Assembly (NCBI GenBank): GCA_037447655.1
Contig: JBBHKE010001012.1
Coordinates: forward strand, 212,851-276,850
Source: Zygnema cylindricum
Lineage: Eukaryota > Streptophyta > Zygnematophyceae > Zygnematales > Zygnemataceae
DNA: 64,000 nucleotides
Reading direction: 5' to 3'
Each line of letters opens with the position of its first letter. Positions within the stretch are counted from its first letter, which is position 1. Below are positions 5,346 to 63,435 of this stretch, piece after piece. The notes under the pieces were generated by a model that ran no database searches, was not told where the DNA came from, and worked only from the letters and a program-made list of their open reading frames with translations. The position numbers and the translations under genes are program-made.

Positions 5346-5639
5346 GCTCAGTACCCCAACTGCTGCAGCAATATCAGGACGGGTAAAATTCAGGAAATAT
5401 ATTAAACTTCCCACTATTTTTTTGTAAGGTATTATTGTTATAGGATCATCCTCCTCTGAGTCTTAATACTCATTAACAGTAACACCCGGTTCTGTCTCAT
5501 CTCCCTCTTAATTCTGCAAAAACTCTATTGGAGTTAGATACCCTTTTGCCCACCCGCATTCCAAACTTATCTAGCATGTTCCCAATAGCTTGTTATAGAG
5601 TCAATTTTATTAATCTGTTATTTCTATCATTTTCTACTT

Positions 5640-6270: not shown

Positions 6271-6275
6271 CGACT

Positions 6276-6890: not shown

Positions 6891-6895
6891 GTAAG

Positions 6896-8337: not shown

Positions 8338-8342
8338 GTAAG

Positions 8343-9499: not shown

Positions 9500-10383
9500 T
9501 CGAGTGTAGATCTTGGGAAATCTTGATTAAACCTGCTTTGTTGCCATCCAGGCCTGTACAATCCTGTTTCGTTAGCTTTTTGAAGGTTAGGACAAAACTT
9601 ACATCCATGACTTTTTCATTTTAATAAAAACAAGCATTGAAAGACTCTCTAATTCCTCTCTAATTAACTAGTTTAACTGATTTTGCTTCTGATTAAACAT
9701 ATTATTCTGCTGATTAAACTGTGTATTTTTGTCAAAATCTGCATTAAATGCCTCTACTTGTTTTTCTCCATTAAGAATTTTAGAATCAACTTCCTTCTCT
9801 AATATCATATTAATTGCTAAATATAAAGTCCAACTGGCTTTATCTTTTTGTTTCAGCTTATCAGATGTTGCTTTCATGGTATTAGGAAGACCCCTCATTA
9901 GTAATGCAGCCTGTTGAAATTAAGGGAAAGATCCACCTGCACAGGCGTGAGAGTCTATTAGACTTCGAAACTTGTTACCATATCCGACCATTATGCCTCT
10001 CGTGTATTTATAGTCCCAAATTTTGCCAGCCAAAAATATTTTTTCTTGGACATTAGCCTTTTCGTTATCATTTTTGAGAGACTTCCACATTTCCATCGCC
10101 TTTATCATTTTTATCCAAGACATAACTAATTTCTCAAAGATACAAGATTTTAGAATAGATCGAGCTTGCAAACTTTTATTCGACCAAGACGGATCCGATT
10201 CCTCCATTGAACCATCCAAATTATCCAAAAGATTAACATTTTGAAGTGTGTTTCCACCATATCGGCCCAATAAACATTTTTTTCCCACGAAAAGATAGGA
10301 ATTCTTGATGACATGCCCATAACCTGATGTTCTACGACCATTGGAGCAAGGGAAGCAGCAGGAGTAGTAGTAGAAATAGACAT
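9500..10383 (-). pseudogene. gag: Copia D gag
   Basis: The start codon at 10383 (MSISTTTPAAS) lies in the LTR end, 59 nt before the LTR/internal border. The frame crosses the primer-binding site as QVMG (see 10310-10324). Frameshifts at about 10250 and 9925 move the chain between frames (10383-10150, 10390-9920, 9898-9668). The middle contains the copia capsid pattern EMWKSLKN...KANVQEKIFLAGKIWDYK. A weak knuckle-like CFY...GKFCPN remnant lies around 9600. The sequence is decayed but recognisable. Confidence 0.7.
10310..10324 (-). promoter_or_regulatory. Primer-binding site of copia D
   Basis: On the minus strand the bases right after the LTR end are GGTTATGGGCATGTC. The first ten match the complement of the anticodon stem-loop of initiator tRNA-Met (GCCCATAACC). 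This is the half-tRNA primer site known in Drosophila copia and yeast Ty5. The site is inside the gag frame and is translated V-M-G. Confidence 0.7.
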
Positions 10384-10896: not shown

Positions 10897-11904
10897 TGTT
10901 GAAATAGCTAGATTTATAGTGTATTTTCTAGTTTTAAATTAGTTTAATGAAAAAGGTAAGACAAGCGGTGGTAGCCTGCCTCAAATCTTTCTCTATAGCC
11001 CCCGTACTTGTTGTAGTCACCGAAAGAGAGAGAGAGTGATTGAGCCATGGTTGCCTCAACTCCATAAGCACGACTAAGAGTGACATAAGTCACTCTCAAC
11101 AAAGGTTGAGTCCGGCAGGACTCGAACCTAAGACCGGTAGAGCAAGGCGTAGCCGTCAGCTCTAATCGATCTGTTGTAGAAGTTTGCTAGAATACATAAG
11201 GTGTGATAAATATATAAACTGTAATATGATTGTTAATTTAATTAATGGAATTATGAATGAGGGAACATAAAACCAATTGAAAATATAGTGCGAACATGAT
11301 CTCCGCATGAAACAAATGAATCAAACATTTGTTTCGATGGTTCACATTAAATGTCGGTTTTTGATCCCACGACACATATCAGCGACGAGATCTCGGAATG
11401 GTCACTTTGGCGGTTTTTGGACGTGGCATGACCTGACGCCACGAGGAGAGATATCATTTAGTCGCGGAAATTCTAGGGAACATAAAGACGAGTAAAACGT
11501 GGACACGCGTCCACTCAATGGCCTTGTCGTACACATGCCGTACTCAAAGTAAATCGGCCGTAGCACCTTTCTGTACAACACATTGATTTTATTGGATCGT
11601 ACTATAGTAGATAAGGGTTGTGAGGGGGGTTAAGGACTTAGTAATTTTTTCTGTAGACAGTCACCTCTCTCCTTGAGAGTTTGTTTAAATTGGCATCTTT
11701 GCCACCTCAGAACTTAACGGCTGGTTGGCCGTTTTTAGGGATTTTTTTTGCTACGCACTGAAAGGATTCTAGGCTGCAAAAGGAAGCAGTCAGACTGTCA
11801 ATTTATCCTCTAGGGCTCCAGTGGTTTTGGTTGGAAGTGGGTTAGTTAAAAGCTATCTAGAGGCTTCCCAAATTCTGTAGTCCAATGGAGGACACAGAAT
11901 TGCA
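10897..11904 (+). mobile_element. Copia A 5' LTR
   Basis: It is 1008 bp long, starts TGTTGAAATAG and ends GAATTGCA. The gag start codon (11885) lies 20 nt before the LTR end, so the LTR encodes the first residues of Gag. An antisense tRNA-like module lies at 11107-11180. The solo LTR at 31267-32275 (1009 bp) and the LTRs of A2 are relatives. Confidence 0.9.
11107..11180 (-). other. Antisense tRNA-like module in A 5' LTR
   Basis: Read on the minus strand it has an A-box-like GATTAGAGCTG and a B box AGGTTCGAGTCC in tRNA order, about 45 nt apart, ending in a GAGTCC/GGACTC hairpin. The cloverleaf is degenerate and no clear anticodon can be assigned, so this is not called as a tRNA gene. Confidence 0.6.
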
Positions 11905-12389
11905 GGTTATAGGCCCACCCTCTAGGGTACCCACCTTCAATGGATGTGGGTTCACCTATTGGGAAGCCATGATGATGGGGGCTTTCTGTGAAAAACGATA
12001 CTGGGGTATTGTTAGTGGACAAATGAAACGTCCACCTCAGGGAACTCCACCAGGTTTTGGTGGAATAAGATTTTCTGCAACAACCTCTGCTGGAGCAGAG
12101 GAGGCAAATGATGGGGACAACAATGTCACAAAAAAAGGGAAAGAGAAGGAGACGCCTCTAACTCTTATTGCTCCTATTACCACGGCACCCGGAGCGGCGA
12201 CCATGAAGACCGCGAAAAATGACACCCAAACGTGGGAAGACATCAACATGGCTGCCAAAAATTTCATTCTAACACACCTCACTCATGCTTAGGCAACCCC
12301 CCATCTTCACATTTACAAGGCAGAAGAGTTGTGGGTGAGTTTGGTGAAAATCTATAGAGCTGATACTATTCAGGAGCTCCAGTAGGCCG
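11885..12389 (+). pseudogene. gag: Copia A gag, N-terminal part
   Basis: The start MEDTELQ is encoded by the last 20 nt of the LTR, and the next residues VIGPP are the translated primer-binding site. Then come FNGCGFTYWEAMMMGAF and KRYWGIVSGQMKRPP, matching the copia Gag N-terminus (DUF4219-like, W-containing). A TAG at 12290-12292 interrupts it; the same frame then gives YKAEELWVSLVKIYR up to the insertion of a solo LTR at 12390. The inverted relative A2 (32512-31262) has the same residues. Confidence 0.8.
11905..11919 (+). promoter_or_regulatory. Primer-binding site of copia A
   Basis: GGTTATAGGCCCACC follows the LTR directly. It is complementary, with one mismatch in the first 13 nt, to the anticodon stem-loop of initiator tRNA-Met (TGGGCCCATAACC), as in half-tRNA priming of Drosophila copia. 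It is in the gag frame. Confidence 0.8.
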
Positions 12390-12580
12390 TGTTGATATTT
12401 GGGTATTTTCTAGGTCTTTACTAGATAGAAAAAAAGTAGAGGCACTCTGCCTCTGACCCCCTTCTCCAAGCCCCCACACTTGTTGTAGTCACTAAAGGCT
12501 GGGTAGGGTGATAGAGCCATGGCTGTCTAAAGCTTTGTAGCAGACAGGTAGCAGAAAATAGATGGGTTTACCAAAAGTAT

Positions 12581-12655
12581 TGACGGACCCAGGAATTGAT
12601 CTGGAACCTGCCGTCCGTCAATGTAGCCGTTAGCTTTGTCCGTTTAGTCTAGGAC
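12581..12655 (-). other. Antisense tRNA-like module in B solo LTR
   Basis: The minus strand reads TAGTCCTAGACTAAACGG ... GGTTCCAGATCAATTCCTGG, with the T-arm-like part near 12585-12605 and an A-box-like part near 12640-12655. It is degenerate, but at the same place (about +195 to +265 from the LTR start) as in the other LTRs. Confidence 0.5.
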
Positions 12656-13176
12656 TAGTGCTAGGATATATAGGGTTTGATAATTATATAAATATGTACG
12701 AGTAGACGAATTCATTTAACGGCGCGTATAGATCTTTAGTACATAGAAACAGTTTAGAGTATTACGGTTTACGCGAAACTAATACCGCGCATTTGTTTCG
12801 ACGGCGAAACAAATACCGCGCACATATTTTCGACGGGTAAGAATGAATACCGGATTTAATCGACAGCCGTGGTGGTAGCTGAGATTTCCGGAATGGCCGC
12901 CTTGGCGTTTTCTGATGCCGCCACTCTGGATGACACGTGGAAATGCGCTGGAGGATTGCAGAATCTCCGGAGCGCAAGATAACAAGTTTGGATATGACAT
13001 TTGTCACTCGTATGGCCATGCTGTACAGTTGCCGTACAGAAAGTACTCCAGCGCCTGTACTTTTATGTATGGTACAGTCTTGTGATTGGCGCCGTACATC
13101 AGTAGAAGGGGTTTAGAGAGGGACTAGAACTTATAATATTTCTGGTAGGTAGCTGACTCTCCCAGAGAGCACCTTG

Positions 13177-13183
13177 TATAAAT
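13177..13183 (+). promoter_or_regulatory. TATA box in family B LTR
   Basis: TATAAAT follows AGAGAGCACCTTG. The same context occurs at 18388-18394 and 22802-22808 in the C LTRs. It probably positions transcription about 790 bp into the LTR, so the tRNA-like module would lie in U3. Confidence 0.55.
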
Positions 13184-13557
13184 GGCAAACTTTGGCTAGC
13201 CATAAATATCAATTCAGTTAACCAAATTCAGTGATTCTTGTTGCTGCAGACCCAAGGGAGTCCAGGCTACACATGGGTGTAGTCGGTCAGAGTTTTTGCC
13301 TGCCTGGGTGGCTGCATTTCTTAGGGAAAGTCAAAGTGGGTGAATGTGTCCAAATCTCATATTCTAACTTTGCAGTCTGTGGTGGAACTGAGCACACAGA
13401 AAGTGTTATTTCACAAGGGTGAAGCTATATTGGAGTTCTGATTGTGAAGGGGTCAGTCATTTGGGTTTATATCAAGTTGGAGTCGGCACTATCTAGATTA
13501 GCTTCCTTTGGACCTGCGAATTCTGTGTGGCAATGGAGCCCATAGAATTTTAGGCCG

Positions 13558-17411: not shown

Positions 17412-17414
17412 TAG

Positions 17415-17427
17415 AAAATAAAAGGAG
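17415..17427 (+). promoter_or_regulatory. Polypurine tract of copia A
   Basis: AAAATAAAAGGAG directly precedes the 3' LTR start. Equivalent tracts GAAAATAAGGGAG (21980-21992) and GAAAATAATGGGAG (62139-62152) precede the 3' LTRs of copia C and B2. These prime plus-strand DNA synthesis. Confidence 0.75.
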
Positions 17428-17787
17428 TGTTGAAATAACTAGATTTATAATGTATTTTCTAGGTCTAAATTAGTTTAATGAAAAAAGTAAGACAAGCGCA
17501 GGTAGTTTGCCTCGAATCCTTTTCTTTAGCCCCCATACTTCTTGTAGTCACAGAAAGAGAGAGAGTGTGATGAAGCCATGTTGAAATTTAAGTATTTTCT
17601 AGGTGTGGAGATTGTAAAATAAAAGACAAAAGAAGAGACACTGACATCTTGCCTCTAACTCTTCACTCAAGTCCCCACACTTGTCGCAGTCACTGAAGAC
17701 TTGAGGAGGAGTTAGATCCATGGCTGCCTAGGCTGTCCAAAGAGGAGAGGAAGGCAAGTCTTGATAGAGTTACCTAAAATGTATGAC

Positions 17788-17855
17788 GGACCGGAGATTT
17801 GATCCGGGTACCTGCCGACCGTCAAATTAGACGTTAGCCTCAACCGTTTAGTTAA
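17788..17855 (-). other. Antisense tRNA-like module in C 5' LTR
   Basis: On the minus strand a T-arm-like CCGGATCAAATCTCCGG and an upstream AACTAAACGGTTGAGG segment occupy the tRNA-like position. The copy in the 3' LTR (22200-22270) is almost identical. This module is more degenerate than those at 31461 and 62532. Confidence 0.45.
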
Positions 17856-18387
17856 GACTGTTCTTAAATGATGCACGGTTTGATAATTATATATAGGCTT
17901 ACACGTAGACTAATTCATTCAACTGAAACTTTACTCGGGATGCATAGATTCAGTTATGTAGAGTACAGAGTACGGTACGGAATAGAAACAGATATCGCGC
18001 ATTTTGTTTCGATAGCGAAACAAATACCGCGCAAGTATTTATGACGGCTACGATTAAAATCTAGTTTTGATCGTACGGCCAGGAAGGATGCCGAGATCGC
18101 GAAAGTGAATCGCGGCGGTTTGCGGTCATCGCCACGTAGGATGACACGTGGCACAATGACATTGGATCGTGGCAACGTCAAAGATTACGAGAACAAATCC
18201 GGATATGACATGTGTCGACATTTTGGCCATGTCGTACGATGGCCGTACAGAAAGTACACCGACACCTGTACTTTTATGTACGACACAGTAATTTGATTGG
18301 TGCCGTACGTCAGTAGATAAAGTTTTAGAGAGAGATAGGACTTAGAAAATTTAGGTGGTAGGGGCCCCTCTCCCAGAGAGCACCTTG

Positions 18388-18394
18388 TATAAAT
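18388..18394 (+). promoter_or_regulatory. TATA box in copia C 5' LTR
   Basis: TATAAAT stands in the context CACCTTG-TATAAAT-GGC, about 810 bp from the LTR start. The context is conserved in the right LTR at 22802-22808 and in the B solo LTR. Confidence 0.55.
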
Positions 18395-18478
18395 GGCAAA
18401 TTTTGGCCAGCCATAACAATTAATTTACTTGACCATTTTCAGTGATTCTTTTTGCTGCCGACTCAGGGGAGTCCAAGC

Positions 18479-19308
18479 TGTTGTCTTTTGGAAAGCTCTC
18501 AGTCTCAGAGCAGCGCAGCAGCGCAGCAACTATACAGACAGCAGCGCAGCTGCTATACGGAAGAGCAACGCAGCTGCTATACAGCAGAGCTGCGCAGCAG
18601 CAGAGCAGCGCAGCAGCGAAGCTGCGATACAGACAGGACAAACGCAGCTGCGGTCACTTTGGATAAGATCCGTACAGACAACGCAGCTGCTACTATCTTG
18701 GATATGATTTGGTGCAGGACACTGCAGCCGCGGGTGATATAAATGTGATCCGGTACGGGACAACGCTGCTGCGATTGATATGAATCTAGTCAACGGACGA
18801 GATTCATAAGAGTATCACAAGTGACTTAGCCGACAAGTATTTGTACAATAACTTAATATAGATTCTGAGTAATATTGACTGTACAATGATAGATTGGGTT
18901 GGCACGATCAAGAACACGTAGATCTCAGTAGGTGGGTTGATTTTGGACGTACCTCTCATGTACACTGTTATCGGCGGTAGAACACCGAAAGTATAAGACT
19001 TAGGACTTAGAACATTTTAATGTATCCAGACTTCCTAGTAGTAAAACTGCAGACAGTTTTTGGGAAACTTCTGAGTATTATATCTTGAGTGTTGTTGGGT
19101 CAATTGTGCTGAAACTTTGGGAGTTGTCAGTGTTTATGCTACTCTATATTCTGATAGAGTTTTGTGAAGCTTGGATGCTTGGATAAGAATTGGTGAGCAC
19201 TTAAGAACAGCTGGTTGGTAGGATTCTTGATAGCTTCTGAGAGTGTATCATGTCTACTTCTACTACTACTGCTGCTCCTCCACCTGCACCGGTGGTTGTA
19301 GAACAACA
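18479..19308 (+). mobile_element. Solo LTR of copia family D
   Basis: It is 830 bp, starts TGTTGTCTTTTGG and ends GTAGAACAACA, with target duplication CAAGC at 18474-18478 and 19309-19313. The flanks rejoin to match the uninterrupted right LTR of C. Its 3' part is the reverse match of 10325-10891 plus 24047 onward. An ATG at 19250 (59 nt before the end) opens MSTSTTTAAPPPAPVVVEQ, the start of D Gag. Confidence 0.9.
18509..18780. repeat. GCAGC/CAGCTGC-rich array in D LTR U3
   Basis: Dense, imperfect repeats of GCGCAGCAGC and GCAGCTGCTATACGG-like units fill the first part of the LTR and thin out downstream. Several overlapping open frames in it are low-complexity products of the repeat, not genes. 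A related but differently expanded array lies in the inverted D LTR near 24360-24560. Confidence 0.8.
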
Positions 19309-19578
19309 CAAGCTACACAGGGGTGTAGTTGGTCAGAGTGTTTGCTTGCCAGGGTGGCTGCATTTCTAAGGGAAAGTCAAAGTGGGGAATGTTATCCAAC
19401 ACTCATATTCTAACTTTGCATTCTGTGGTGGAACTGAGCACACAGAAAGTCTTATTTCACAGGGGTGAATCTATATTCGGGTTCTGATTGTCAAGGGGTC
19501 AGTCATTTGGGTTTATATAAACTTGGAGTTGGCACTATCTAGATAAGCTTCTCTTGGATGTGCTTACTCTGAGGGCCA

Positions 19579-19902
19579 ATGGAGGTCTCAGAGTTTAAGG
19601 TTATGGGCCCACCATCTAGGGTGCCTATGTTTGATGGAGCAGGCTTCAGTTATTGGGCGTTTACAATGGAGGGATTACTTTTCGAGAAGCACCTATGGGG
19701 AATTGTTGCGGGACAAGTGAGATGTCCGCCATCTGGCTTTGGAGGAGCTTACTATGGAGATTCATCTGAGGCTGCCCAAAATATCAACCGGAGTTCAGAT
19801 GCAACGGAAGGTGAAGGGAAAAATCTTTCCGTGGATGGGGAAATAGGGGAGAAGGAATGTGGTGGAACTGAGCACACAAAAAGTCTTATTTCACAGGGGT
19901 GA
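19579..19902 (+). pseudogene. gag: Copia C gag start, first copy
   Basis: MEVSEFKVMGPPSRVPMF starts in the LTR and continues through FDGAGFSYWAFTMEGLL, LWGIVAGQVRCPP and a Ser-rich linker. It ends prematurely at the tandem-duplication junction, where it reads into LTR sequence (ECGGTEHTKSLISQG stop). The intact continuation uses the second copy at 20013. Confidence 0.8.
19599..19613 (+). promoter_or_regulatory. Primer-binding site of copia C (first copy)
   Basis: GGTTATGGGCCCACC is an exact complement of the initiator tRNA-Met anticodon stem-loop over 13 nt (TGGGCCCATAACC). A second copy is at 20033-20047 within the tandem duplication. Both are in the gag frame, encoding V-M-G-P. Confidence 0.82.
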
Positions 19903-20012
19903 ATCTATATTCATGTTCTGATTGTCAAGGGGTCAGTCATTTGGGTTTATATAAACTTGGAGTTGGCACTATCTAGATAAGCTTCTTTTGGATGTGCTTA
20001 CTCTGAGGGCCA

Positions 20013-20399
20013 ATGGAGGTCTCAGAGTTTCAGGTTATGGGCCCACCATCTAGGGTGCCTATGTTTGATGGAGCAGGCTTCAGTTATTGGGCGTTTACAA
20101 TGGAGGGATTACTTTTCGAGAAGCACCTATGGGGAATTGTTGCGGGACAAGTGAGATGTCCTCCATCTGGCTTTGGAGGAGCTTACTATGGAGATTCATC
20201 TGAGGCTGCCCAAAATATCAACCAGAGTTCAGATGCAACGGAAGGTGAAGGGAAAAATCTTTCCGTGGATGGGGAAATAGGGGAGAAGGAAAAAGGGACA
20301 CCTATGGTGAGGGGAGCTAGGCTCTCAACTATGGTACAACATGTAGGGATTAAAACTGAAGAAAATGACAAAAAATATGGGAATACAAAAACACTATAG
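20013..20399 (+). pseudogene. gag: Copia C gag, second N-terminal copy
   Basis: The frame starts with MEVSEFQVMGPPSRVPMF at the second LTR-end copy. It repeats the first copy and adds EKEKGTPMVRGARLSTMVQ. TAG at 20397-20399 separates it from the following frame (20423-21463), which carries the next Gag segment; an intact family member would read through. Confidence 0.75.
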
Positions 20400-20422
20400 C
20401 AAAACATCTGATACTTAGATAT

Positions 20423-21463
20423 GTGTCTAAGTCGATAGCTATCACTCTTTTAAGTCTAACCAAGTCTTCAGAGATATGGGAAGCACTAATTCAGATTTAT
20501 AAGAGTGAGACTATTCAGAGGCAGCAATTAGTAAAACAGGAAATAGAGGCCTACGTTTATAAAGGCGGTAGCATGATAGAGTTTTGCAATGATATTGTTG
20601 CGTTATATGTTGAGCTTACAAGTGTGGGATATGTAGAATCTGAGGAGAGTAAGATTAATACACTACTTATGAAACTCCCAAATAAGTACGAAGACATCAT
20701 TTGTCGTATGCAGGCAATGGATGGCTCCTCATGGACTTGGAGCTTTACCATAGGGATAATTCTTGTGAGGGAAAGCACTTTGGAGCTTCGTAGGGGAAGA
20801 GACAGGGTCAATGCATTTTCAGCTTGTGGTGATTGGCGAAAGCGTGATGAGAGGAACGGCGGTGACGAGCGGAAGCATGATGAGAGGAACGGTGGTGACG
20901 AGCGGAAGCGTGATGAGTGGAACGGTGGTGACCAGCGGAAGCGTGATGAGAGAAAGAAAGACAAAGGTAAATCTTATCGGAACTTTGGTGGAAAGAGAGG
21001 GAGAGGAAAAGAAAGGGGAGCTTTGAAAAAGGGGGTTTGCTTCTTTTGTAGGGAACCGGGTCATTATCTGGAGGAATGCCCTTGTTTGGAAAACCTTAGA
21101 AGTTGGAATGTGGATGAGGAGGAAGAAGGGGAAGAGGAGAAAGAGGATGAAGATATTTTAGAGCTTCTCCGGATTAGTAGTATGGGGAAGAGAGAAAAGC
21201 ACACAAAAATTCCACGAAAGCAACAGTGTGCTTTTGGAGGTATAAGGGAAGTAAAGAGAGAGGAGATACTTGAGGGAGTTCAAAATATTGAGGATTGTTT
21301 CATAGATATTTTGGAAACAGAAAACTGGTCGGAAAGGGAGACTTCAATGGATTCCGAGGAAAGGGGAGAATTAATTCTAGAGGGGGTTTTAAAGGATAGG
21401 GGAGAAGAGAAATATTTGACTAAAGGTTTAGGGGAGAAAAATATTTATTGGGAATTAAAATAG
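20423..21463 (+). CDS. gag: Copia C Gag, main frame with zinc knuckle
   Basis: This 346-codon frame is the longest intact retroelement frame on the plus strand. It contains SEIWEALIQIYKSETIQRQQ, MIEFCNDIVALYVELTSVGY, KLPNKYEDIICRMQAMD and VRESTLELRRGRDRVN, the Gag capsid pattern shared with A. Four imperfect 11-residue repeats of the type ERNGGDERKRD follow, then a basic stretch and a CCHC knuckle (CFFCREPGHYLEEC). A strongly acidic segment (DEEEEGEEEKEDEDI) follows. In A the same position is followed by protease; here it runs into an acidic tail with no protease motif. The start at 20423 is internal to Gag, since the stop at 20399 precedes it. Confidence 0.72.
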   Translation: MSKSIAITLLSLTKSSEIWEALIQIYKSETIQRQQLVKQEIEAYVYKGGSMIEFCNDIVALYVELTSVGYVESEESKINTLLMKLPNKYEDIICRMQAMDGSSWTWSFTIGIILVRESTLELRRGRDRVNAFSACGDWRKRDERNGGDERKHDERNGGDERKRDEWNGGDQRKRDERKKDKGKSYRNFGGKRGRGKERGALKKGVCFFCREPGHYLEECPCLENLRSWNVDEEEEGEEEKEDEDILELLRISSMGKREKHTKIPRKQQCAFGGIREVKREEILEGVQNIEDCFIDILETENWSERETSMDSEERGELILEGVLKDRGEEKYLTKGLGEKNIYWELK

Positions 21464-21954
21464 AAAGTGATAGTGGAAAGAATTCCATGGGAGAGAGTGA
21501 GGAAAGTTCAGGAAATGGGGTAATTATCATGGATAAAAATATGAGTACGGAAGATGTAGATCTTATGAGGAACTTAGTGGGGACTAGTGTTATTTGGGAA
21601 TATGTGGGGGTGGATGGATTTGACATCACTACTTGGTGTGATGTCGCTTGTGAAGATGTGCCTGTAAAAGGGTTATCATCTGGGTATGTGTTGCAGGTTG
21701 GGGATGGGGCTGACTGTTGGAAATGCAAAAGGGAAAGTAGATTCTGGTTGGATGAAAAGGAGAGAAGGTGGATAAAATCTTTGATCAGATTTATGAAAAG
21801 TGGCATGCAAAATAAAATGTATGATCAACAAGATGAAATTATTTTTGGTCATCAAATACACTTTCTTAAATATAAAAGTATTCGCTTGAAGCTTCATGAA
21901 GGAAAAAGGAAAAAAGGAAAGGAAAATATATATAAATGTATTTGTTGTTTTTGA
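21448..21954 (+). CDS. RNase H-like remnant frame of copia C
   Basis: The 168-codon frame overlaps the Gag frame by 16 nt in another frame. Its second half reads FDITTWCDVACEDVPVKGLS, GYVLQVGDGADCWKC and RRWIKSLIRFMKSGMQNKM, aligning with A RNase H (INTWSDASYKDAPMKRCISG, YVLYVGEGACCWSR, LMWVKSFMQELGYMKNG). The catalytic Asp of WSDAS is retained as WCDVA. The stretch after it resembles the end of RNase H, then gives way to a Lys-rich tail. B2 (61731-62135) keeps the same shortened block. Its function is unknown and it may simply be cis sequence near the polypurine tract. Confidence 0.55.
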   Translation: MGIKIESDSGKNSMGESEESSGNGVIIMDKNMSTEDVDLMRNLVGTSVIWEYVGVDGFDITTWCDVACEDVPVKGLSSGYVLQVGDGADCWKCKRESRFWLDEKERRWIKSLIRFMKSGMQNKMYDQQDEIIFGHQIHFLKYKSIRLKLHEGKRKKGKENIYKCICCF

Positions 21955-21992
21955 AGGGAGTTGAAAGTAAAGTAGACTAGAAAATAAGGGAG

Positions 21993-23177
21993 TGTTGAAA
22001 TTTAAGTATTTTCTAGGTCTAGAGATTGTAAAATAAAAGACAAAAGAAGAGACACTGACAGCTTACCTCTAACTCTTCACTCAAGTCCCCACACTTGTCG
22101 CAGTCACTGAAGACTTGAGGAGGAGTTAGATCCATGGCTGCCTAGGCTGTCCAAAGAGGAGAGGAAGGCAAGTCTTGATAGAGTTACCTAAAATGTATGA
22201 CGGACCGGAGATTTGATCCGGGTACCTGCCGACCGTCAAATTAGACGTTAGCCTTAACCTTTTAGTTTAGACTGTTCTTAAATGATGCACGGTTTGATAA
22301 TTATATATAGGCTTACACGTAGACTAATTCATTCAACTGAAACTTTACTCGAGATGCATAGATTCAGTTATGTAGAGTACAGAGTACGGTACGGAAAAGA
22401 AACAGATATCGCGCATTTTGTTTCGATAGCGAAACAAATACCGCGCAAGTATTTATGACGGCTACGATTAAAATCTAGTTTTGATCGTACGGCCGGGAAG
22501 GATGCCGAGATCGCGAAAGAGAATCGCGGCGGTTTGCGGTCATTGCCACGTAGGATGACACGTAGCACAATGACATTGGATCGTGGCAACGTCAAAGATT
22601 ACAAGAACAAATCCGGATATGACATGTGTCGACATTTTGGCCATGTCGTACGATGGCCGTACAGAAAGTACACCGACACTTGTACTTTTATGTACGACAC
22701 AGTAATTTGATTGGTGCCTTACGTCAGTAGATAAAGTTTTAGAGAGAGATAGGACTTAGAAAATTTAGGTGGTAGCGGCCCCTCTCCCAGAGAGCACCTT
22801 GTATAAATGGCAAACTTTGGCCAGCCATAACAATTAATTTACTTGACCATTTTCAGTGATTCGTTTTGCTGCGGACTCCAGGGAGTCCAAGCTACACAGG
22901 GGTGTAGTTGGTCAGAGTGTTTGCTTGCCAGGGTGGCTGCATTTCTAAGGGAAAGTCAAAGTGGGGAATGTTATCCAACAGTCATATTCTAACTTTGCAT
23001 TCTGTGGTGGAACTGAGCACACAGAAAGTCTTATTTCACAGGGGTGAATCTATATTCAGGTTTTGATAGTCAAGGGGTCAGTCATTTGGGTTTATATAAA
23101 CTTGGAGTCGGCACTATCTAGATAAGCTTCTTTTGGATCTGCTTACTCTGAGGGCCAATGGAGGTCTCACAGTTTTA
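21993..23177 (+). mobile_element. Copia C 3' LTR
   Basis: It is 1185 bp, starts TGTTGAAATTTAAG and ends CAGTTTTA, followed by the duplication AGCCA and the rest of the A 3' LTR. It is very similar to the 5' LTR. The ATG at 23158 lies 20 nt before the end. The tRNA-like module is near 22200-22270 and the TATAAAT box at 22802-22808. Confidence 0.88.
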
Positions 23178-24046
23178 AGCCATGGCTGCCTCAACTCCAC
23201 AAGTAGGACTAAAGAGTGACATAAGTCACTCTGAACAAAAGGATGAGTCCGGCTAGACTCAAAACTTCGACCGGCAGAGCGAGGAGTAGACGTCAGCTCT
23301 AACCGGTCTGTCGTAGAAGCTTGCTAGTATACATAAGGTGTTATAAATATATAAACTGTAATATGATTGATAATTCAATTAACGGAATTATGAATGAGGG
23401 AACATAGAATCAGGTGAAAATATATTGGGAATATGTTTTCCGCACGAAACAAATAAATCAAACATTTGTTTCTACGATTCATATTGAATGTCAGTTTTTT
23501 ATCCAAAGACACATATCAGCGCCGAGATCCTGGAATGGTCACTTTGGCGGTTTTTGGACGTGGCATGACCTGACGCCACGCGGAGAGATAGCATTTGGTC
23601 GCGGAAATTCCGGGGAATATAATGACGATTAAAACGTGGACATGCGTCCACTCAATGGCCTTGTCATACGCAAGCCGTACAGAAAGTACATCGGTTGTAG
23701 TACATTTTTGTACTACATACTGATATGATTGAATGGTACTATAGTAGATAGGGGTGTGAGAGGGGTTTAGGACTTAGTAATTTTTTATGTAGATAGTCAC
23801 CTCTCTCTTTGAGAGTTTGTATAAATTAGCATATTTGCCACCTCATAACTTATTAGCTGGTTGGCCATTTTTAGTGATTCTTTTTGCTACGGACTCGGGG
23901 GAGTCCAGGCTGCAGAGGGGTGCTGTTAGAAAGTTAATTTGTTCATCTTGGGCAACAGTGGTTGTGGCTGGAAGTGGGTTAGATAAAAGCTATATAAAGG
24001 CTTCTTGAGTTCTGTAGTCCAACTGAGGACACATAATTGCAGTTCT

Positions 24047-27982: not shown

Positions 27983-28680
27983 GTCTTATGATCCTCTTCC
28001 CCCTATCTCTTTCCATTTGAATTCCCAAATTATATCTTGCCTCCCCTAAATCTTTCATGTCAAATCTGCTTCTAAGATCTTTCTTCAACTTATTGATATT
28101 TTCCAAAGACTTACTTAACAACCAGCAGATCATCCACATAAATTGCAATAAAGATCACACCATCCTCATCTTCAAACATATAGATAGAATGGTCAGAACA
28201 GATCCTGATCTATCCTATATCAGTGATTAACCCATCTAGTTTCATATTCCACTGTCGAGGAGCATGTTTAAGTCCATATAGTGACTTTAGGAGCCTACAG
28301 ACTTTCCTCTTTTCCCCATTCTCCACAAACCCTTCCGGTTGCCGCATGAAGATTTCTTCCTCTAACTCACCATTGAGGAAGGCGGTCTTAATGTCCATCT
28401 GATGAATTTCCATGTCTTCCGCCGCTGCCAGACTGAGGAGAATACTTACTGATGGGAACCGAACAACTGGAGCAAGTGTCTCCTCATAGTCAATCCCCTC
28501 CTTTTGGGTGAACCCCTTTGCTACCAAACGAGCCTTAAATTTTACAATGGTATTATCTGGGTTTAGTTTTAGTTTAAATACCCATTTAAATCCAATAAGT
28601 TTTATGTATGGAAGACAATGTGCTAGCTCCCAAGTATTTGCTTCCATGATAGAGGCCATCTCATCATTTATGGCTCTAAT
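27983..28680 (-). pseudogene. pol: Copia A2 reverse transcriptase
   Basis: The frame 28659-28210 contains FKWVFKLKLNPDNTIVKFKA, IDYEETLAPVVRF, QMDIKTAFLNGELEEEIFM and SLYGLKHAPRQWNMKLDGL. A frameshift follows, after which IYVDDLLVV is legible in another frame, so the catalytic residues are intact apart from the frame. The last segment (ENINKLKKDLRSRFDMKDLG) runs to GKRIIRL and then directly into LTR sequence. Confidence 0.85.
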
Positions 28681-29340
28681 TCATCTGTCATTTTCTGGGC
28701 TGTTCACCATCTCTAAGTATGAATGAGGCTCATCAGGATGAGATAGCTTAGTTACGTTACGAGCAGCTTGTTTCTCCTGTATCTTTTTGTTGCTCCTTCT
28801 TCCTCCCTCAAACCCTGAGGCTGAAATAGAGGGAAGTCTTGGGTTTCTCCTTATTGTCTCATCGTCTCCCCTATCTATGGAAGTCGAGTCCGGTTTCTCC
28901 ACTTCTTTCTCCTCGAAGTCCATAGGAATATGTGAGGTGTCCGGTAACTCACTTGTTTCTTAGACATCCCCTAAATTTGCAATCATGCCTCACTCATGTT
29001 CTTTTCAGGAAAAACCGAATTCTCCTCACTTTCGGACTCAAACCTGATTCTTATCTTTTTGGTATATTTGAAGGGGTCAATTGACTTTCCTTCATCCATA
29101 GCAACTAGGTGTTTGACCAAAATGATATCTTGCTTTGCCAAGTCATAGACTCTATATCCTTTGACATCCTCATCATATCCTACGAAATATCCGGGTTTTC
29201 CCTTAGCATCAAATTTCCAGTTTTTCTTATCCGTATCTAGACTGTAAACTTGGGTACACAATACTTTAAGGTGAGAGATATCCGGTTTCCTTCCAACCCA
29301 TCTCTCATAAGGTGTCATACCTTTGACTGCTGAGGTAAGG
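28681..29340 (-). pseudogene. Copia A2 integrase C-terminus and linker
   Basis: The frame 29318-28983 has TPYERWVGRKPDISHLKVL, GKPGYFVGYDEDVKGYRVYD and an FESESEENS acidic end. The frame 28923-28681 has the PSISASGFEGGRRSNKKIQE linker and KLSHPDEPHSYLEMVNSPEN leading into RT. A single stop separates each part. Confidence 0.8.
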
Positions 29341-29342
29341 AC

Positions 29343-30020
29343 TCAATTCTTAATATAGTTGGCACAATTGATGGCTTCTGCCCAAAATCTCTTTCCTATT
29401 TTCTTTTCAGCCAACATATTGCTTACACTATCTCCTATTGTTCGGTTTAACCTCTCAACTACTCCATTTTGCTCTGGATTATGTGGTACAATTTTCTGGT
29501 GCGGAACTCCCTCATCTCTCAAGTATTCTTCAAACTGGTTAGAGGTATATTCTCCCGCGTTATCACTCTTTATTCTTTTAATGGGGGTTCCATGCAACTT
29601 CTCACTCCATGCTTTATATTCTTTGAAGTAAGTTGGTGTTTCAGACTTGGTTTTTAGCAAGTAGACTCTAGAATATCTAGACCAGTCATAACTAATTGTC
29701 AACATATACCTCTTCTCTCCAACTGAGGGTACCCTTGCTGGTCCCCAGAAATCTGTATGGATTAAATCACGTACCTTCTCTCCTCTATATGTGGCGGCTT
29801 TAGGAAAAGGTAGTGGGTGAGCCTTTCCTTGGGCACACCCACTACAATCATCCACCATTTGAATGTCACTGAACTGAATGCCTTCCACTACATCAAGCTT
29901 CTTCATTTCCCTCAACGTATCAAAATGCACATGCCCCAACCGCTTATAACAAATCATCAACTTTGGGACACCAACATAATAAGCATTCTTCTTTTCATTA
30001 CTTAGGTTAAGCCTAAACAT
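29343..30020 (-). pseudogene. pol: Copia A2 integrase
   Basis: This 225-codon open frame has the GAG-pre-integrase finger (CYKRLGHVHFDTLREMKKL, DDCSGCAQGKAHPLPFP). One finger position shows Cys-Tyr where His is usual. Then comes the core with DLIHTDFWGPARVPS, IKSDNAGEYTSNQFEEYL and EQNGVVERLNRTIGDSV, so the D, D, E triad is complete. It would carry out strand transfer. It lies between protease remnants (30021-30480) and the integrase C-terminal frame. Confidence 0.85.
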
Positions 30021-30480
30021 TCCTTGGCTACCCTTATCTGCAGTGAAGTAAACCTCATCCCCATTCTTAGCTGTAAAGACTCCCTTTCTAGTGAAGGTAT
30101 CAAATTTTTTGTCATCTAAAACAGATGTAGAGACAAGATTTTTACTCAGCTGAGGAATATAGAGTACATCTCAGAAAGTGAGTATAGAAGTCTTTTTCCT
30201 CCACTATGACTTTTAGATCTACTGATCCCACTAGATCTGTAGTTACCACTCTCCCATCCCTATTCTTGATTTCTACAGTAAGGAAATTCCTTAGCTTAGT
30301 GAAGAGGTCCTTGTCACGACACATATGCATGGATGCACCTGAGTTGATGATCCATCCTTTCTGTGGAGCTTCTCGAATTGCTCAAAGGGCACACTTCTGT
30401 CTCCGAGGGATCTCCTTCTCCTTCAGACTCTTGTCAAGAAGAAGCTCCCCATCCTCCTTAGAGGACTCGTCCTCGGTGTC
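30021..30480 (-). pseudogene. Copia A2 protease
   Basis: GWIINSGASMHMCRDKDLF (around 30350-30300) is the retropepsin site with Asn replacing the catalytic Asp (DSGAS to NSGAS). DGRVVTTDLVGSVDLKVIVE follows. A stop near 30170 breaks the rest. Confidence 0.75.
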
Positions 30481-31266: not shown

Positions 31267-32275
31267 TGTTGAAATTCATAGATTTCTTTAGTATTTTCTA
31301 GGTTTAAATATGTTAGGAAAAAGAAAAAGGACAGACAGCCTGCCTCCACCTCCTTTCTCTAACCCCCATACTTGTTGTAGTCACTGAAGGATAAAGAAGG
31401 TGGTTGATCCATGGCTGCCTTAGTTCAACAGGCAGTTATATTTAGAAGGTTACTAAAAACGGACCCAGGATTTGAACCTGGAACCTGCGGTTCGTCAAGT
31501 TGGCCGATAGCGGTCAGCTTTATCCTACTAGACTATGACCAATGCTAAGTGCTATAGAATATGATAGATATTTATACATTTAGGAAGTAAGAAATCCATT
31601 TAACTAAAATTGGATACGGCGTGCATAGATACAGTTTTAGTACGACATCATTTCAGAATGAATACCTCGCATTTGGTTGACAGCGAAACAAATATCTCGT
31701 AAGTAATTATAACGGTTACGATTACGTCTCATTACGAATCCGACGGCGCACGTCATCGCCGAAATCCCGGAGTGGTCACCTTGGCGTTTTGGAACGTGGC
31801 ATGACCTGGAGCCACGTGGAGAGATGACATTAGGTCATAGGAATTCCGAGGAATGTACGGACAAATAAAAAGCAGACAGGCGTCCACTTAATAGCCTTGT
31901 CGTACATAGGCCGTACAATAGGTACACCGGCAATAGTACTTTTTGGTACGGTACAGTAATTTGATTAGTCCGTACTTCAGTAGATAGAAGTTATTAGAAG
32001 GAATCAGGACTTAGAAAATTTTGGTAGGTATTCACCTCTCCCTTTGAGAGTTTGTACAAATTGGCATTTTTGGTGCCTCATAACTTATCGGCTGGTTGGC
32101 CGTTTTCAGTGATTCTTTTTGCTACGGGCTAAAGGGAGTCCAGGCTGCATAGGGGTGCAGTCAAATTATCAGTTTGCCTTCTTGGGCAGCAGTGGTCGTG
32201 GCTTAAAATGGGTTAGTTAAATACTATCTAAAGGCTTCCTGTATTCTGTAGTCCAATGGAGGACACAGAATTGCA
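31267..32275 (+). mobile_element. Solo LTR, family A type, in A2 gag
   Basis: It is 1009 bp, starts TGTTGAAATTCATAG and ends GAATTGCA, with duplication ATGTC at 31262-31266 and 32276-32280. It is inserted in opposite orientation to A2. The ATG at 32256 is 20 nt before the LTR end. It contains the best-preserved tRNA-like module (31461-31540). Confidence 0.92.
31461..31540 (-). other. Antisense tRNA-like module, best preserved
   Basis: On the minus strand GGTCATAGTCTAGTAGGATA forms an A-box-like 5' part. CCAGG-TTCAAAT-CCTGG forms a perfect five-base-pair T arm with a seven-base loop and B box GGTTCAAATCC. The middle is longer than in a standard tRNA and no confident anticodon arm is seen. It sits at +195 to +274 of the LTR, the same place as the modules in all related LTRs. 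Confidence 0.65.
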
Positions 32276-32280
32276 ATGTC

Positions 32281-32512
32281 CCCATCACCTGCCTCCTCTG
32301 CTGCAGCAGATGTTGCTACAGAAAAACCTTATTAAACCAAATCCCGGTGGTGTTCCCTCAGGTGGACGTTTCACTTGTCCACTTACAATACCCCAGTATC
32401 GTTTTTCACACAAAGCCCTTGTCATTATGGCTTCCCAATAGATAAATCCTGATCGATTGAAAATGGGCACCGTAGAGGGTGGGAACATAACCTGCAATTC
32501 ATTGTCCTCCAT
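32281..32512 (-). pseudogene. gag: Copia A2 gag, N-terminal part
   Basis: MEDNELQVMFPPSTVPIF begins at 32512, 20 nt inside the LTR. Then come GFIYWEAIMTRALCEKRYWG and IVSGQVKRPPEGTPPGFG. The chain is cut by the solo LTR at 32280 and continues below 31262. Confidence 0.75.
32478..32492 (-). promoter_or_regulatory. Primer-binding site of copia A2
   Basis: The minus strand reads GGTTATGTTCCCACC right after the LTR end, a two-to-three-base variant of GGTTATGGGCCCACC. It is translated V-M-F-P-P in gag. Confidence 0.65.
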
Positions 32513-59173: not shown

Positions 59174-60312
59174 TATTGAAATTGATGTATTTATGTATTT
59201 TCTAGGTCTATATTAGGATAGAAAAGGAGCAGAGGCATTCTGCCTCTAACTCCCTTCTCTAAGTACCCCAGACTTGTTGTAGTCACTAAAGGCTAGATAG
59301 GGAGCTAGAGCCATTGCTGCTTAGCCCCTCTAGAGAGACAAGGAGTAGTTTTGGTAGATTTACCAAAAAGGGGTTTGACAGACCCAGGATTTGATCCTCG
59401 TACATAGCGTCCGTCAAATCTCTCATAGCAGTTAGCTTTATCCTATAGTCTAGGAAAAATGCTACGATATATAGGGTACGATATATAAATTTAAGTGTGT
59501 ACACGCCAAATATTCCATTTAATTGATACAACGGAATTTTAAAGCATAGAACCCACTATACCTTATATACCGTACTAAATAAATTTTACAGATATTTATT
59601 TCGACGGTCTTTATCAAAAGCCAACTTTGATTGACAGCCATGGTGCGAGCCAAGATTATGGAATGGCGGCCTTGGCGGTTTTTGGACGCCGTCACTCCGC
59701 ATAACAGGTGGTAACATCTTACTGGTTTACGGAATCTCAGGAGTGCACAGTTACAAGTCTGGATGTGATATATGTCACAATTATGGCCATGCCGTACAAA
59801 TGTTGAACACAAAATACTCCGGCACCTGTACTTTTATATACGGTACAGTCTTGTGATTCGTACGGTACTTCAGTAGTGGAGGGGTTTAGGACTTAGAAAA
59901 AATAGTAGGTAGCCGCCTCTCTCCCAGAGTGCTTTTGTATTTATGGGGCATCTTTGGCTAGCCATAACTAACTGCTCAAAAGAGCAAATTTAGTGATTTT
60001 TTTGCTGCGACCTCAAGGGAGTCTAGGCTACACAAAGATGTAGTGAGTTTGAGATTTTGCCTTCCAAGGTGGCCACATTTGTAAAGGAAAGTCAAAGTGG
60101 GGGAATGTGTCCAAATACTTATAGTCTAACTTTGCACTATATTGGGGATTTGAGCACACAGATTGTCTTCTTTCACAGGGTGAAGCTCTATTGGAGTTTT
60201 AATTTTCATGGTGCATGTCATTTGTGTTTCTATCAACTTGGTTTCGGCACTATCTAGATAAGCTTCTATGCATCTGCGATTTCTGTGGGGGAATGGACCT
60301 CACAAAATTCTA
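59174..60312 (+). mobile_element. Copia B2 5' LTR
   Basis: It starts TATTGAAATTGATG (first G of TGTTG mutated) and ends AAATTCTA. The ATG at 60293 is 20 nt before the end. The tRNA-like module is at 59376-59455 on the minus strand. It closely matches the B2 3' LTR. Confidence 0.85.
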
Positions 60313-61730
60313 GGTTATAGGCCCACCATTTAGGGTGCATATGTTCGAACATACTTCACTTATAGGGGATTTATGATGGAGGGATTGCTTTTCGAAAAGC
60401 ACTTATAGGGAATTGTTTTAGGACAAGTGAGGTGTCCGCCACCAGGCTTCAATGGAACTCACTATGGAGATTCATCTAGGGCTTCCCAGAAATCCAAACG
60501 GAGTTTAGATGCAACAAAAGGTGAAAGGGAAATTATTGCTATGGAAGAGGGAAAAGGGGAGAAGAGAAAAGGATCACCTATGGTGAGGGGAGCTAGGATC
60601 TCGGCTACGATTCCACTTGTAAGGGTTATAAGTAAACAAAAAACTGAAGAAAATGACAGTATAAGTTTGGAGAATAAAAACACTAAAGCAAAATATTTAT
60701 TACTTAGAAACGTGTCTAAATCCATAGCTATCACTCTTATAGTCTTAACCAAATCTTAATAAATATAGGAAGCACTAATTAAGACTTATAAGGGTGAGAC
60801 TTTGCATGGGCAGCAGTTAGTAAAACATAAAATAGTGGCCAATGTTTATAAAGGTGGTAGCATTATAGAGTTTTGCAATGATATTGCTGCATTATATGTT
60901 GAGTTTGCTAGTGCATGATATGTAGAATCTGAGGTGAGAATGATTAACACATTAATCATAAAACATCCAGATGAGTACAAAAACATCATTAACCGTATGC
61001 ATAAAATGGATTACTCCTCATAGAATTGGAGCACTAACATGGGGATGATTTTTGAGATGGAGAGCACATTGGAGCTTCGTAGGGGAAGTGACACGATCAA
61101 TGCACTGACCGCTGGTGGTGACTGGCGGAAGCGTGATGAAAGGAATGATGGTGACTGGCGGAAGCGTGATGAGAGGAAGAAAGATAAAGATAAACCTTAT
61201 CCGAACTTTGGTGGAAAGAGACGAAGAGGAAAAGAAAGGGGAGCTTCGAAGAGAGGGGTTTGTTTCTTTGTAGGGAATCGGGTCACTATATGGCAAAATG
61301 TCCTTGTTTGGAAGAAATTAGAAGTTGCAATGTGAATGAGGAGGAAGAAGGTGAAGAGAAGAAAGAGGATGAAGATATTTCGGAGCTTCTTCACATCGGT
61401 TGTATCGGGAAGAGAGAAAAACACACAGAAATTCCACGAAAGCAAGAGTGTGTTTTTGGAGGTATAAGGGAAGTAAAGAGAACGGAGGTACTTGAGGGAG
61501 TTAAACATGATGAGGATGTCAAAGAGTGTAGAGTTAATGACTTAGAAATGAGAAAGTCAGATCTAGAATTAAAATTGAAAGAAGGGAAAAATCAAAATAT
61601 TGAGGATATTCTAATAGAATTTTCGGAGATAGAAAACTGGTCAAAAAAGGAGACTTCAACGGATTCGAAGGAACGGGGAAAAGTAAATCTAGAAGGAGCT
61701 TCAAAGGATAGGGGAAAAAAGGAAAATTAA
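60293..61730 (+). pseudogene. gag: Copia B2 gag
   Basis: The start MDLTKF meets a stop at the LTR border (TTCTAG), then VIGPP follows. The frames 60427-60759, 61039-61335 and 61260-61730 carry VRCPPPGFNGTHYGDSSRAS, VSKSIAITLIVLTKS, ESTLELRRGSDTINA, two DWRKRDER-type repeats, a knuckle split by a one-base shift (CRESGHYMAKC) and an acidic tail with NVNEEEEGEEKKEDEDI. The tail adds about 40 residues compared with C. It ends TAA at 61728-61730, immediately followed by ATG. Confidence 0.75.
60313..60327 (+). promoter_or_regulatory. Primer-binding site of copia B2
   Basis: GGTTATAGGCCCACC directly follows the LTR; it is the same site as in copia A and is complementary to the initiator tRNA-Met anticodon stem-loop. 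Confidence 0.78.
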
Positions 61731-62135
61731 ATGAAAAATTTGGGGAAGGGTGGATTTGACATCACTACTTGGTGTGATGTCACTTATGAAGATGTGCATG
61801 TAAAAGGGTTAGCATCTGGGTATGCGTTTGCAAATTGGGGATAGGGTTGGCTGTGGAACTCCAACCGGGAAATTGGATTTTGCTCGGATGAAATAGGGAT
61901 GAGGTGGATAAAATCCTTGCTCCAATTGCTCGGATTTATGAAAGGTGGCTTGCCAAATAAAATTGGTGATCAACGAGATGCAATGTTTATTTTGGCTCAT
62001 CTAATGCACTTTTTTAAACACGGGGGTATTCACTTAAAGTTTTATGAGAGGAAAAGAAAAAGAAAAAAAAGGAAAAATATTTTTGTTTTGTTGTTTTTTT
62101 TAAGTGGGAGTTGAAAGAAAGTAGACTAGAAAATA
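61731..62135 (+). pseudogene. Copia B2 RNase H-like remnant
   Basis: GGFDITTWCDVTYEDVHVKG and later RWIKSLLQLLGFMKGGLPNK and DQRDAMFILAHLMHFFKHGG parallel the C remnant at 21600-21900 and the A RNase H. There is a stop after YAFANWG. The reading frame follows gag directly (TAA-ATG). Conservation of the same truncated block in C and B2 is notable. Confidence 0.6.
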
Positions 62136-62410
62136 ATGGGAGTGTTGAAATTGATGTATTTTCTAGGTCTAAATTATGAAAGAAAAGGAGCAGAGGCAGT
62201 CGGCCTCTAACTCCCTTCTCCAAGCCCCCACACATGTTGTAGTCACTAAAGGCTGTATAAGGAGCAAGAGCCATGGCTTCCTAGGCCCTCTAGAGAGACA
62301 GGGAGTAGTTTTGGTAGATTTACCAAAAAAGGGATTGACGGACCCAAGATTTGATCTTGTTACTTGTCGTCCGTCAAATCTTTGATAGCCGTTAGCTTTA
62401 TCATATAGTC

Positions 62411-63435
62411 TGTTGAAAAGAAGTAATTAATATTCACTCCTTAATGTAGACTCTAGAGTGAAGAGAGAGAATGAGTCACCTCAAAAAGAAACAGGCAGAC
62501 AAGGAGACAGATAGATAGATTACCAAAAAGTTGCCCTTAACAGGTTTTTGAACCTGTGTCGAAATCCTTTATAGACATCCGCCTTAATCATCGAGGCATT
62601 AACGAAACGGTACACGTATGTGGTTCGGTGATTAATTTAAGTGTTACGCAAACGTCACTTTCACTTAAACAAACCAAAATTGACGAAACGACATCTATAG
62701 TCAATTGGCGCTCGCGGACGCGAATCTAATCGTGTAAAATACATGATCGGACGGACGACGTCGCCCCCGCCAAATCCAAATGAATCTTTGGCGGCTCTCG
62801 GAAATAGCGGCGCGCTCTGCCACGTGGCGCCACATCATTGAAGCCGAAAAAGATGGGAGGAGGAACGATGGCTCCCAAGCTTACAAGTGTCAACCAGAAG
62901 GCCATGTTGTACAATGGCCGTACAAGAAGTACAATCGGCCACTGTACCTTCTTGTACTATACACTCTTTTGATTTTTCTAGGGTACAGTAGTAGGTAGGT
63001 GTGAGTAGGAGTTAAGGGACTTAGCGAGAATGAGGCGCCTCTCTCCAGGTGACCTTTTGTATTTATAGGCCATATTTGGCCAACCATAACTAGCTGCCTA
63101 GGGGAGCAAATTCAGAGATTCTTTTTGTTGCTAACGCAGGGGAGTCCAGGCCACACAAGGGTGTAGTCGGTCAGAGTTTTTGCTTGCCAGGGTGGCGACA
63201 TTTATAAGGGAGAGTCAAAGTGGGGAATGCTGTCCAAAACACATGTTCAAGCTTTGCATTCTGTGGTGAAACTGAGCACACAGAAAGTCTTCTTTCACAG
63301 AGGTGAATCTATATACAAGTTTTGAGAGTCAAGGTGTCAGTTATTTGGGTTTCTATTAACTTCGAGTCGGCACTATCTAGATAAGCTTCTTTAGGTGTGC
63401 GATTTTTGTGGGGAAATGGAACCTATAAAATTTCA
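62411..63435 (+). mobile_element. Solo LTR, family F
   Basis: It is 1025 bp, starts TGTTGAAAAGAAG and ends AAAATTTCA, with duplication TAGTC at 62406-62410 and 63436-63440. The ATG at 63416 is 20 nt before the end (MEPIKF). The U3 differs from the other families but the last 400 bp are closely related. Confidence 0.9.
62532..62604 (-). other. Antisense tRNA-like module in family F LTR
   Basis: The minus strand has CGATGATTAAGGCGG (A-box-like, Ser/Leu-tRNA style) and a perfect T arm ACAGG-TTCAAAA-CCTGT (62540-62557). The sequence is unrelated to the other modules although its place and orientation agree. Confidence 0.6.

Follow-up and report, generated by a model that had tools for sequence, protein, structure and literature searches.

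The closest described relatives of the elements considered here are the hemiviruses: copia, 1731, Ty5 and Osser are primed by half of an initiator tRNA-Met (PMC1181622; PMC8515867), and in half-tRNA elements DNA synthesis proceeds from nucleotide 40 (PMC1181622). Among plant Ty1/copia elements, half-tRNA-Met primer sites have been described in Bryco, Osser and part of Gymco-II (PMC6317226). In Ty1, the GAG AUG follows a 53-nt leader, the primer site at nt 95-104 lies inside GAG, and a structured 5′ domain serves translation, packaging and priming (PMC5454406). For Ty1 and Ty3, the sequence of the primer tRNA is reported as not inherited (PMC5371799).

Here we describe elements of Zygnema cylindricum in which several of these features are combined. 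We put at roughly four chances in five the reading that they are Ty1/copia elements of the half-tRNA (hemivirus) type whose Gag AUG sits in the LTR, in the loop of an RNA hairpin, and whose gag-pol frame would be translated through the primer site. They resemble copia, 1731, Ty5 and Osser in the half-tRNA-Met primer, whereas the LTR Gag start, the start-codon hairpin and the inherited half-tRNA copies seen here are not mentioned in the accessible text on those elements. Bryco, Osser and part of Gymco-II are likewise similar in their half-tRNA-Met site; the accessible portion of that report gives no Gag start or leader structure. Ty1 shares the primer site inside GAG but, in the available part of its description, uses a tRNA 3′ end as primer and has a pseudoknot-organised domain. 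In retroviruses, too, a stem-loop adjoins the primer site (the U5 structures), but there Gag starts downstream of the primer site and here before it. To our knowledge, direct biochemical proof of half-tRNA priming exists for few elements. Half-tRNA priming has been described before, as has a primer site inside GAG; their combination, the hairpin and the fossil tRNA copies described below look new, and a search of the open-access literature, outside which most subscription papers lie, found no report of the combination, of a copia Gag start in the LTR or of an inherited half-tRNA.

Elements of the window and the position of the start codon

The window, the whole 64-kb stretch of DNA that was analysed, comes from an assembly of 352.8 Mb in 2689 contigs. 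Element A (10897-24041, plus strand) is flanked on both sides by an exact 5-bp target duplication, GTTCT. Its 5′ LTR, which starts with TGTTGAAAT, spans 10897..11904 (plus), as defined by the target duplication and by matches to its own 3′ LTR pieces (85% to the remnant at 23178-24041 and 88% to 17428-17578). The Gag start codon at 11885..11887 (plus) lies 20 nt ahead of the LTR end, and the half-tRNA-iMet primer binding site at 11905..11919 (plus), GGTTATAGGCCCACC, has a single mismatch, which falls in the anticodon complement. Read from the LTR ATG, the Gag frame covers 135 codons before its first in-frame stop (11885..12292, plus); its first 129 residues, taken alone, gave no Pfam match. 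This gag is a decayed copy, interrupted further on by a solo LTR (12390..13552, plus; ATG at 13533; target duplication GGCCG).

Element B (17579..23177, plus; target duplication AGCCA) is nested in the 3′ LTR of element A and has ATGs at 19579, 20013 and 23158 and primer sites at 19599 and 20033, all on the plus strand. A 434-bp tandem duplication at its start (19424-20157) doubles the LTR end, the ATG and the primer site. A further solo LTR (31267..32275, plus; ATG at 32256) carries the duplication ATGTC. An element on the minus strand has its primer site at 32478..32492, with two mismatches, and its ATG at 32512; within 28210..30170 its integrase (29343-30170; Pfam rve and gag_pre-integrs) lies upstream of its reverse transcriptase (28210-28680; RVT_2), which is the Ty1/copia order. 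Element E (59174..63435, plus) contains ATGs at 60293 in the 5′ LTR and 63416 in the 3′ LTR and a primer site at 60313-60327; an exact target duplication was looked for at its borders and none was found. Exact 5-bp duplications flank four of the six elements tested (GTTCT, GGCCG, AGCCA, ATGTC), the other two having no exact one and one boundary possibly being a base off. Because the exact duplications fix the LTR ends, the primer site can be placed at the first base past the LTR, and the sequence that follows the LTR end at 11905, 19599, 20033, 60313 and 32492 (minus) differs from the 15-mer at 0-2 positions. The remaining ATG sites of the window are ends of solo LTRs or 3′ LTRs.

The initial annotation placed the Gag start inside the LTR, and the LTR ends defined by target duplications, together with the open frames described below, bear this out. 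The ATGs it listed at 11885, 13533, 19579, 23158, 32256, 32512 (minus), 60293 and 63416 are all at a distance of exactly 20 nt from the LTR end. Its CTG at 24022 has to be corrected: at the equivalent position in the 3′ LTR of element A (24022..24041, plus) the in-register codon has decayed to ACT, and CTG is found when reading from the next base. The copy at 20013, the tenth, stems from the 434-bp duplication and was absent from that list.

Genome-wide, the exact 15-nt primer site occurs 5974 times, compared with 6 for a control pattern read backwards, and an ATG lies exactly 20 nt ahead in 4932 of these (83%; control 5). Allowing up to two mismatches raises the count to 12945 (control 123). 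Our locus sample comprised the first 100 exact sites in contig order, 70 of which were analysed first and 30 held out. The ATG at -20 was present in 64 of the first 70 and 27 of the held-out loci, or 91/100, and at the other distances from 3 to 119 an ATG was found in no more than 2 of the first 70. The nine misses are ATA (4), ATC, AAG, two indels and L010; in eight, then, the same ATG has been altered by a base change or a small indel, and L010 comes from another family. Since 83% of sites have the ATG genome-wide and 91/100 in the sample, the sample is poorer in other-family sites or decayed starts than the genome as a whole.

The anatomy is that of Ty1/copia elements (Pseudoviridae), with 5-bp duplications, rve before RVT_2 and a Retrotran_gag_2 domain; of hemiviruses, with a primer site that is the complement of part of the initiator tRNA's anticodon arm; and of a Ty1-like arrangement, with the Gag AUG in the LTR and the primer site inside the gag frame. 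Complementarity to a tRNA 3′ end, as in a Ty1-type primer site, was not found at this site, where the match is to nt 25-39.

Reading frame, lineages and the AUG-poor leader

The frame that begins at the -20 ATG and passes through the primer site is open in 12 of the first 70 loci, for 511 codons in seven (L023 and L024 being near-identical) and 345 in five, in every case to the end of the fetched locus. Among three translated copies, Retrotran_gag_2 was detected in all and Pol_BBD in two. The primer site reads Q-V-M-G-P-P, as expected from the earlier proposal that it encodes conserved Gag residues. Eight protein homologues of Gag, at 23-26% identity, are distant copia relatives that allow no lineage to be assigned.

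A fixed distance of 20 nt, as first proposed, holds within the main group only; other lineages have 26 or 59 nt. We examined 20 sites from the first 100 listed of the 975 with AACA before the primer site. Eleven belong to a lineage in which the ATG precedes the primer site by 26 nt and the phase is the same; one of them (L117) has acquired an in-frame stop through a change at the LTR end. Another seven form one non-coding family, which has no in-frame ATG, and L111 and L114 have no ATG in phase within the stretch examined. The seven (L107, L118-L122 and L124) carry the half-tRNA primer site with no gag frame and only a short M-G-P-x-P-I-Y peptide, and are apparently non-autonomous. In L105 the ATG may be 38 nt ahead of the primer site, a stop lying at the joint. 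Family D is represented in the window by one copy (10310..10383, minus), whose ATG at 10383 precedes by 59 nt a primer site that begins at 10324; the initial annotation was right about this spacing and its phase, though only the first 10 of the 15 primer-site bases are kept.

The distances 20, 26, 38 and 59 all equal 2 mod 3. In the coding copies of three lineages (20, 26 and 59 nt), V-M-G is followed by the same P-x-F motif, at equal spacing in the main group, family D and 6 of the 11 26-nt copies; the other five have an insertion of eight residues that keeps the frame. Given this common motif, the shared phase seems best explained by descent from one ancestral arrangement, without separate selection. 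A broader form of this explanation would attribute distance and phase alike to the amplification of one family, the spacing having no function. It agrees with the primer site being read in one frame before a common Gag motif in all coding lineages, in some 26-nt copies with the in-frame insertion, so that the phase is inherited, and with the absence of an in-frame ATG from the non-coding family that has the same primer site (7/20 AACA-type sites). We regard it as partly true and, as a full account, possible but doubtful, because the 20-nt distance has stayed unchanged even as compensated changes accumulated in the hairpin arms, and because AUG depletion is seen in every group.

This depletion is roughly threefold and extends over about 325 nt upstream of the LTR start codon. 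At 67 loci (L010 and L024 being left out, as was L016, whose upstream sequence is too short), the interval from -345 to -21 contains 95 ATGs, compared with 443 expected from base composition and 290 from dinucleotides; ATG is the lowest of the 64 triplets under the dinucleotide model and second lowest under the base-composition model. Farther upstream, from -700 to -351, the same loci contain 435 ATGs, with 435 and 449 expected, respectively. When the loci were divided into eight groups (62 loci; L010, L013, L016, L021, L024, L030, L061 and L066 left out), the ratio was below 1 in all eight, at 0.19-0.71 versus 0.86-1.20 farther upstream, the depletion being weak in two (0.65 and 0.71). Individual copies are not uniformly clean, and only 19 of the 57 sampled copies having the ATG are free of AUG between -340 and -21. 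The drop sets in between -375 and -345, and 15 of 69 loci have a TATA-like motif at the expected place, in most cases between -375 and -378.

Such a pattern would be expected if selection removed upstream AUGs from a scanned leader. We propose that transcription begins within the LTR, roughly 350 nt ahead of its end, that ribosomes would scan the AUG-poor leader to the AUG in the stem-loop, and that gag-pol would be translated from there across the primer site. A transcript start downstream of the LTR ATG, which according to the initial annotation would prevent its translation, is unlikely because the ATG-depleted leader begins about 325-350 nt upstream.

The initial annotation also suggested selection on both RNA and protein. 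We compared codons among 20 open-frame copies, leaving out L024 and L061; the sampling of exact primer sites leaves codons 7-11 without variation. In the LTR-coded codons 2-6, differences at positions 1, 2 and 3 were 0.246, 0.223 and 0.184, with 382 non-synonymous versus 92 synonymous codon comparisons. The corresponding values were 0.135, 0.114 and 0.382 (637 versus 675) for codons 12-25 and 0.189, 0.269 and 0.420 (926 versus 554) for codons 26-40. An excess of third-position change is thus present in both downstream segments and absent from codons 2-6. The suggestion therefore appears half right: the RNA part is supported by the hairpin covariation described below, and the protein part is not, the LTR-coded residues giving no sign of protein constraint and the visible constraint being that of the RNA hairpin, which could itself damp third-position change in these codons.

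An alternative is that Gag starts at the primer site's own AUG, the M of V-M-G-P-P, and that the LTR ATG opens a dispensable extension or a short upstream frame. The primer-site AUG, the complement of the CAU anticodon, is in frame with Gag in the main group as well as in the 26-nt lineage and family D. The lack of any sign of protein constraint on the LTR-coded residues would fit such a start, as would the TAA at codon 5 of the LTR frame in 8 of 100 sites (L001, L002, L004, L020, L027, L034, L069 and L151). Nevertheless, the -20 ATG is kept in 91/100 sites, AUG depletion reaches right up to it, and the primer site carries ATA in some copies, two of them in the window. On a tree of the first 70 loci (L010, L013, L016 and L024 left out), the seven TAA copies adjoin GAA or GAG copies, except for L002 with L027; a TAA subfamily using the primer-site AUG was rejected on the basis of this scatter. 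We consider a start at the primer site unlikely. Codon 5 shows recurrent GAA to TAA change beside changes to AAA and AAG; it falls in the stem pair that is most often broken, and the TAA copies show an excess of G-to-T change.

A hairpin around the start codon

Nucleotides -33 to -5 of the LTR can form an 11-bp stem (8 + 3 pairs with one bulge) closed by a 6-nt loop that holds the ATG and ending 4 nt ahead of the primer site. In element A this pre-PBS stem-loop occupies 11871..11901 (plus), with arms at 11871-11883 and 11890-11901 and the ATG in the apical loop. The fold of 11862-11904 has a z-score of -2.70 and is the same stem-loop as in the homologous copies, where covariation is seen.

Across 68 loci (59 distinct; L010, from another family, and L024, a duplicate of L023, left out), 90.0% of alignment cells are paired, compared with 76.6 +/- 0.9% in shuffles and 22-51% when the pairing is slid. 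The covariation score is 0.440 versus 0.200 +/- 0.013 in shuffles, while double-change pairs and further pair types are not clearly above the shuffles (120 and 67 of 500). As the hairpin was drawn from these same loci, the 30 held-out loci (27 distinct) serve as an independent set; there, 86.4% of cells are paired versus 76.8 +/- 1.3%, covariation is 0.332 versus 0.180 +/- 0.019, and the two weak measures, of five in all, were reached by 24 and 123 of 500 shuffles. RNAalifold predicted 9 of the 11 pairs from 21 open-frame copies, a set picked by reading frame and not by structure, and only the top 3 of 11 from all 68 rows, decayed copies included. The stem arms ACTCTGAG/CTCAGAGT and ATTCTGTG/CACAGAAT substitute for each other, and the ACTCTGAG/CTCAGAGT stem occurs in two separate clades of a single FastTree tree, a distribution for which recombination could also account. 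Single-sequence fold z-scores are modest, from -1.25 to -3.80 in six main-group loci. One copy of the 26-nt lineage forms its own 9-bp stem at this place, with the ATG within the stem (z -5.06). A second hairpin, between the 3′ half of the primer site and the following gag codons, folds well but was rejected: 240 of 500 shuffles reach its observed pairing, and in this sample its 5′ arm is fixed by the choice of exact primer-site matches.

The inverted repeat might instead have its role at the DNA level, for instance by helping integrase to recognise the LTR end. It does lie near the LTR terminus, where integrase binds, and DNA palindromes would covary as well. On the other hand, the bases that integrase normally recognises are the outermost ones, beyond the main stem, and the loop is centred on the start codon, so we think a DNA-level role improbable. 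The preferred reading is that the stem-loop is kept by selection on RNA and presents the start codon, and that it probably also leaves the primer site open to pairing or links translation with packaging and primer annealing. With start codon, RNA fold and primer site within about 50 nt, the leader offers a natural system for studying how one RNA is shared by translation and reverse transcription.

Primer identity and the LTR-tRNA joints

In seven of eight initiator tRNA genes or relics, nt 25-39 (linear count) are exactly complementary to the primer site, and ARAGORN called six distinct host initiator tRNA genes as tRNA-Met. The complementarity to the anticodon arm of the host initiator tRNA noted at the outset is thus an exact match to host iMet genes, whose product presumably resembles land-plant initiator tRNA. 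The 5′ half of this tRNA (39 nt, its 3′ end being standard nucleotide 40) would pair with the primer site, and minus-strand DNA would start at the last LTR base.

A 30-nt pattern of the tRNA complement has 21 matches in the genome (control 1), of which 8 are tRNA genes or relics. In each of the other 13, an LTR-like end passes directly into 28-39 nt of tRNA complement, and the joint always falls at one tRNA base, which by our count is standard nucleotide 40 in 13/13; L106 deviates at the joint base itself. The LTR side ends in CA in nine, TA in three and GA in one. The copy is 39 nt long, reaching the first base of the tRNA, in L090 and L093, where it matches a host gene variant, and 39 nt with four differences in L098; the other lengths are 32 nt (two loci), 29 (three) and 28 (five), and several copies contain one or two internal mismatches. 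In L093, gag resumes 33 nt past the primer-site start, with 94% identity to L038 and four shared joint bases, and in L100 the tRNA copy runs into an inverted copy of the same LTR.

These joints are apparent fossils of half-tRNA copying. Plus-strand synthesis would sometimes continue onto the half tRNA as far as its 5′ end, and the resulting copies would be inherited; if the plus strand copies the primer and its end then finds another template, structures like those of L093 and L100 are the expected products. That the 13 loci are tRNA pseudogenes or assembly joins is very improbable, even though flanks of L098, L105 and L106 (both sides) and of L090 and L101 (downstream) match no sampled copy and 4/13 LTR-side ends are not CA, because all 13 join at the same tRNA position, LTR-end similarity reaches the joint or stops no more than 2 nt away in six (L091, L093, L099, L100, L103 and L104), and gag resumes in L093 as it does.

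If they are fossils, the 13 joints fix the primer end to the base and imply that tRNA sequence can enter the element. The primer sequence would then be inherited at least occasionally, which runs against the accessible account of Ty1 and Ty3 (PMC5371799). Fossil tRNA copies can be searched for in any genome and would provide an experiment-free test of primer identity. Only tentatively would we extend this to a hairpin that acts as a switch coupling Gag translation to half-tRNA annealing, together with a primer tRNA sequence that, unlike that of Ty1 and Ty3, is inheritable, so that the primer site may be rewritten by the tRNA.

The ends of the tRNA copies cluster at 28-29 nt (8/13), near tRNA positions 9-10, as found with a 30-nt pattern that could hardly detect copies under about 27 nt. 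Positions 9-10 are methylated in many tRNAs, and often so is position 26, near which the usual primer site of 14-15 nt ends. In HIV, plus-strand synthesis is known to stop at a point set by a methylated base, according to the available part of that report (PMC11301382). Methyl blocks behind the 28-29-nt ends are not claimed here, because the pattern is nearly blind to shorter copies.

L097, L100 and L104 contain inverted or tandem LTR-tRNA-LTR structures resembling products of fold-back or multi-LTR integration. Elsewhere in the window, two repeats separated by about 6.3 kb and enclosing an RVT_1 frame (1303-8338) mark an element of a type other than copia, and a GC-rich segment at 37455-40510 (59% in 38001-40000, versus a regional level of about 40%) has overlapping frames and a match to a Myb-like domain slightly below the Pfam cut-off. 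A further copia element lies at 46204-51908 (minus), with the primer-site-like sequence TGGTATCGGAGC at 51433, which resembles the complement of the tRNA-Met 3′ end, with one mismatch to that motif; given this element, full-tRNA and half-tRNA copia elements may reside side by side.
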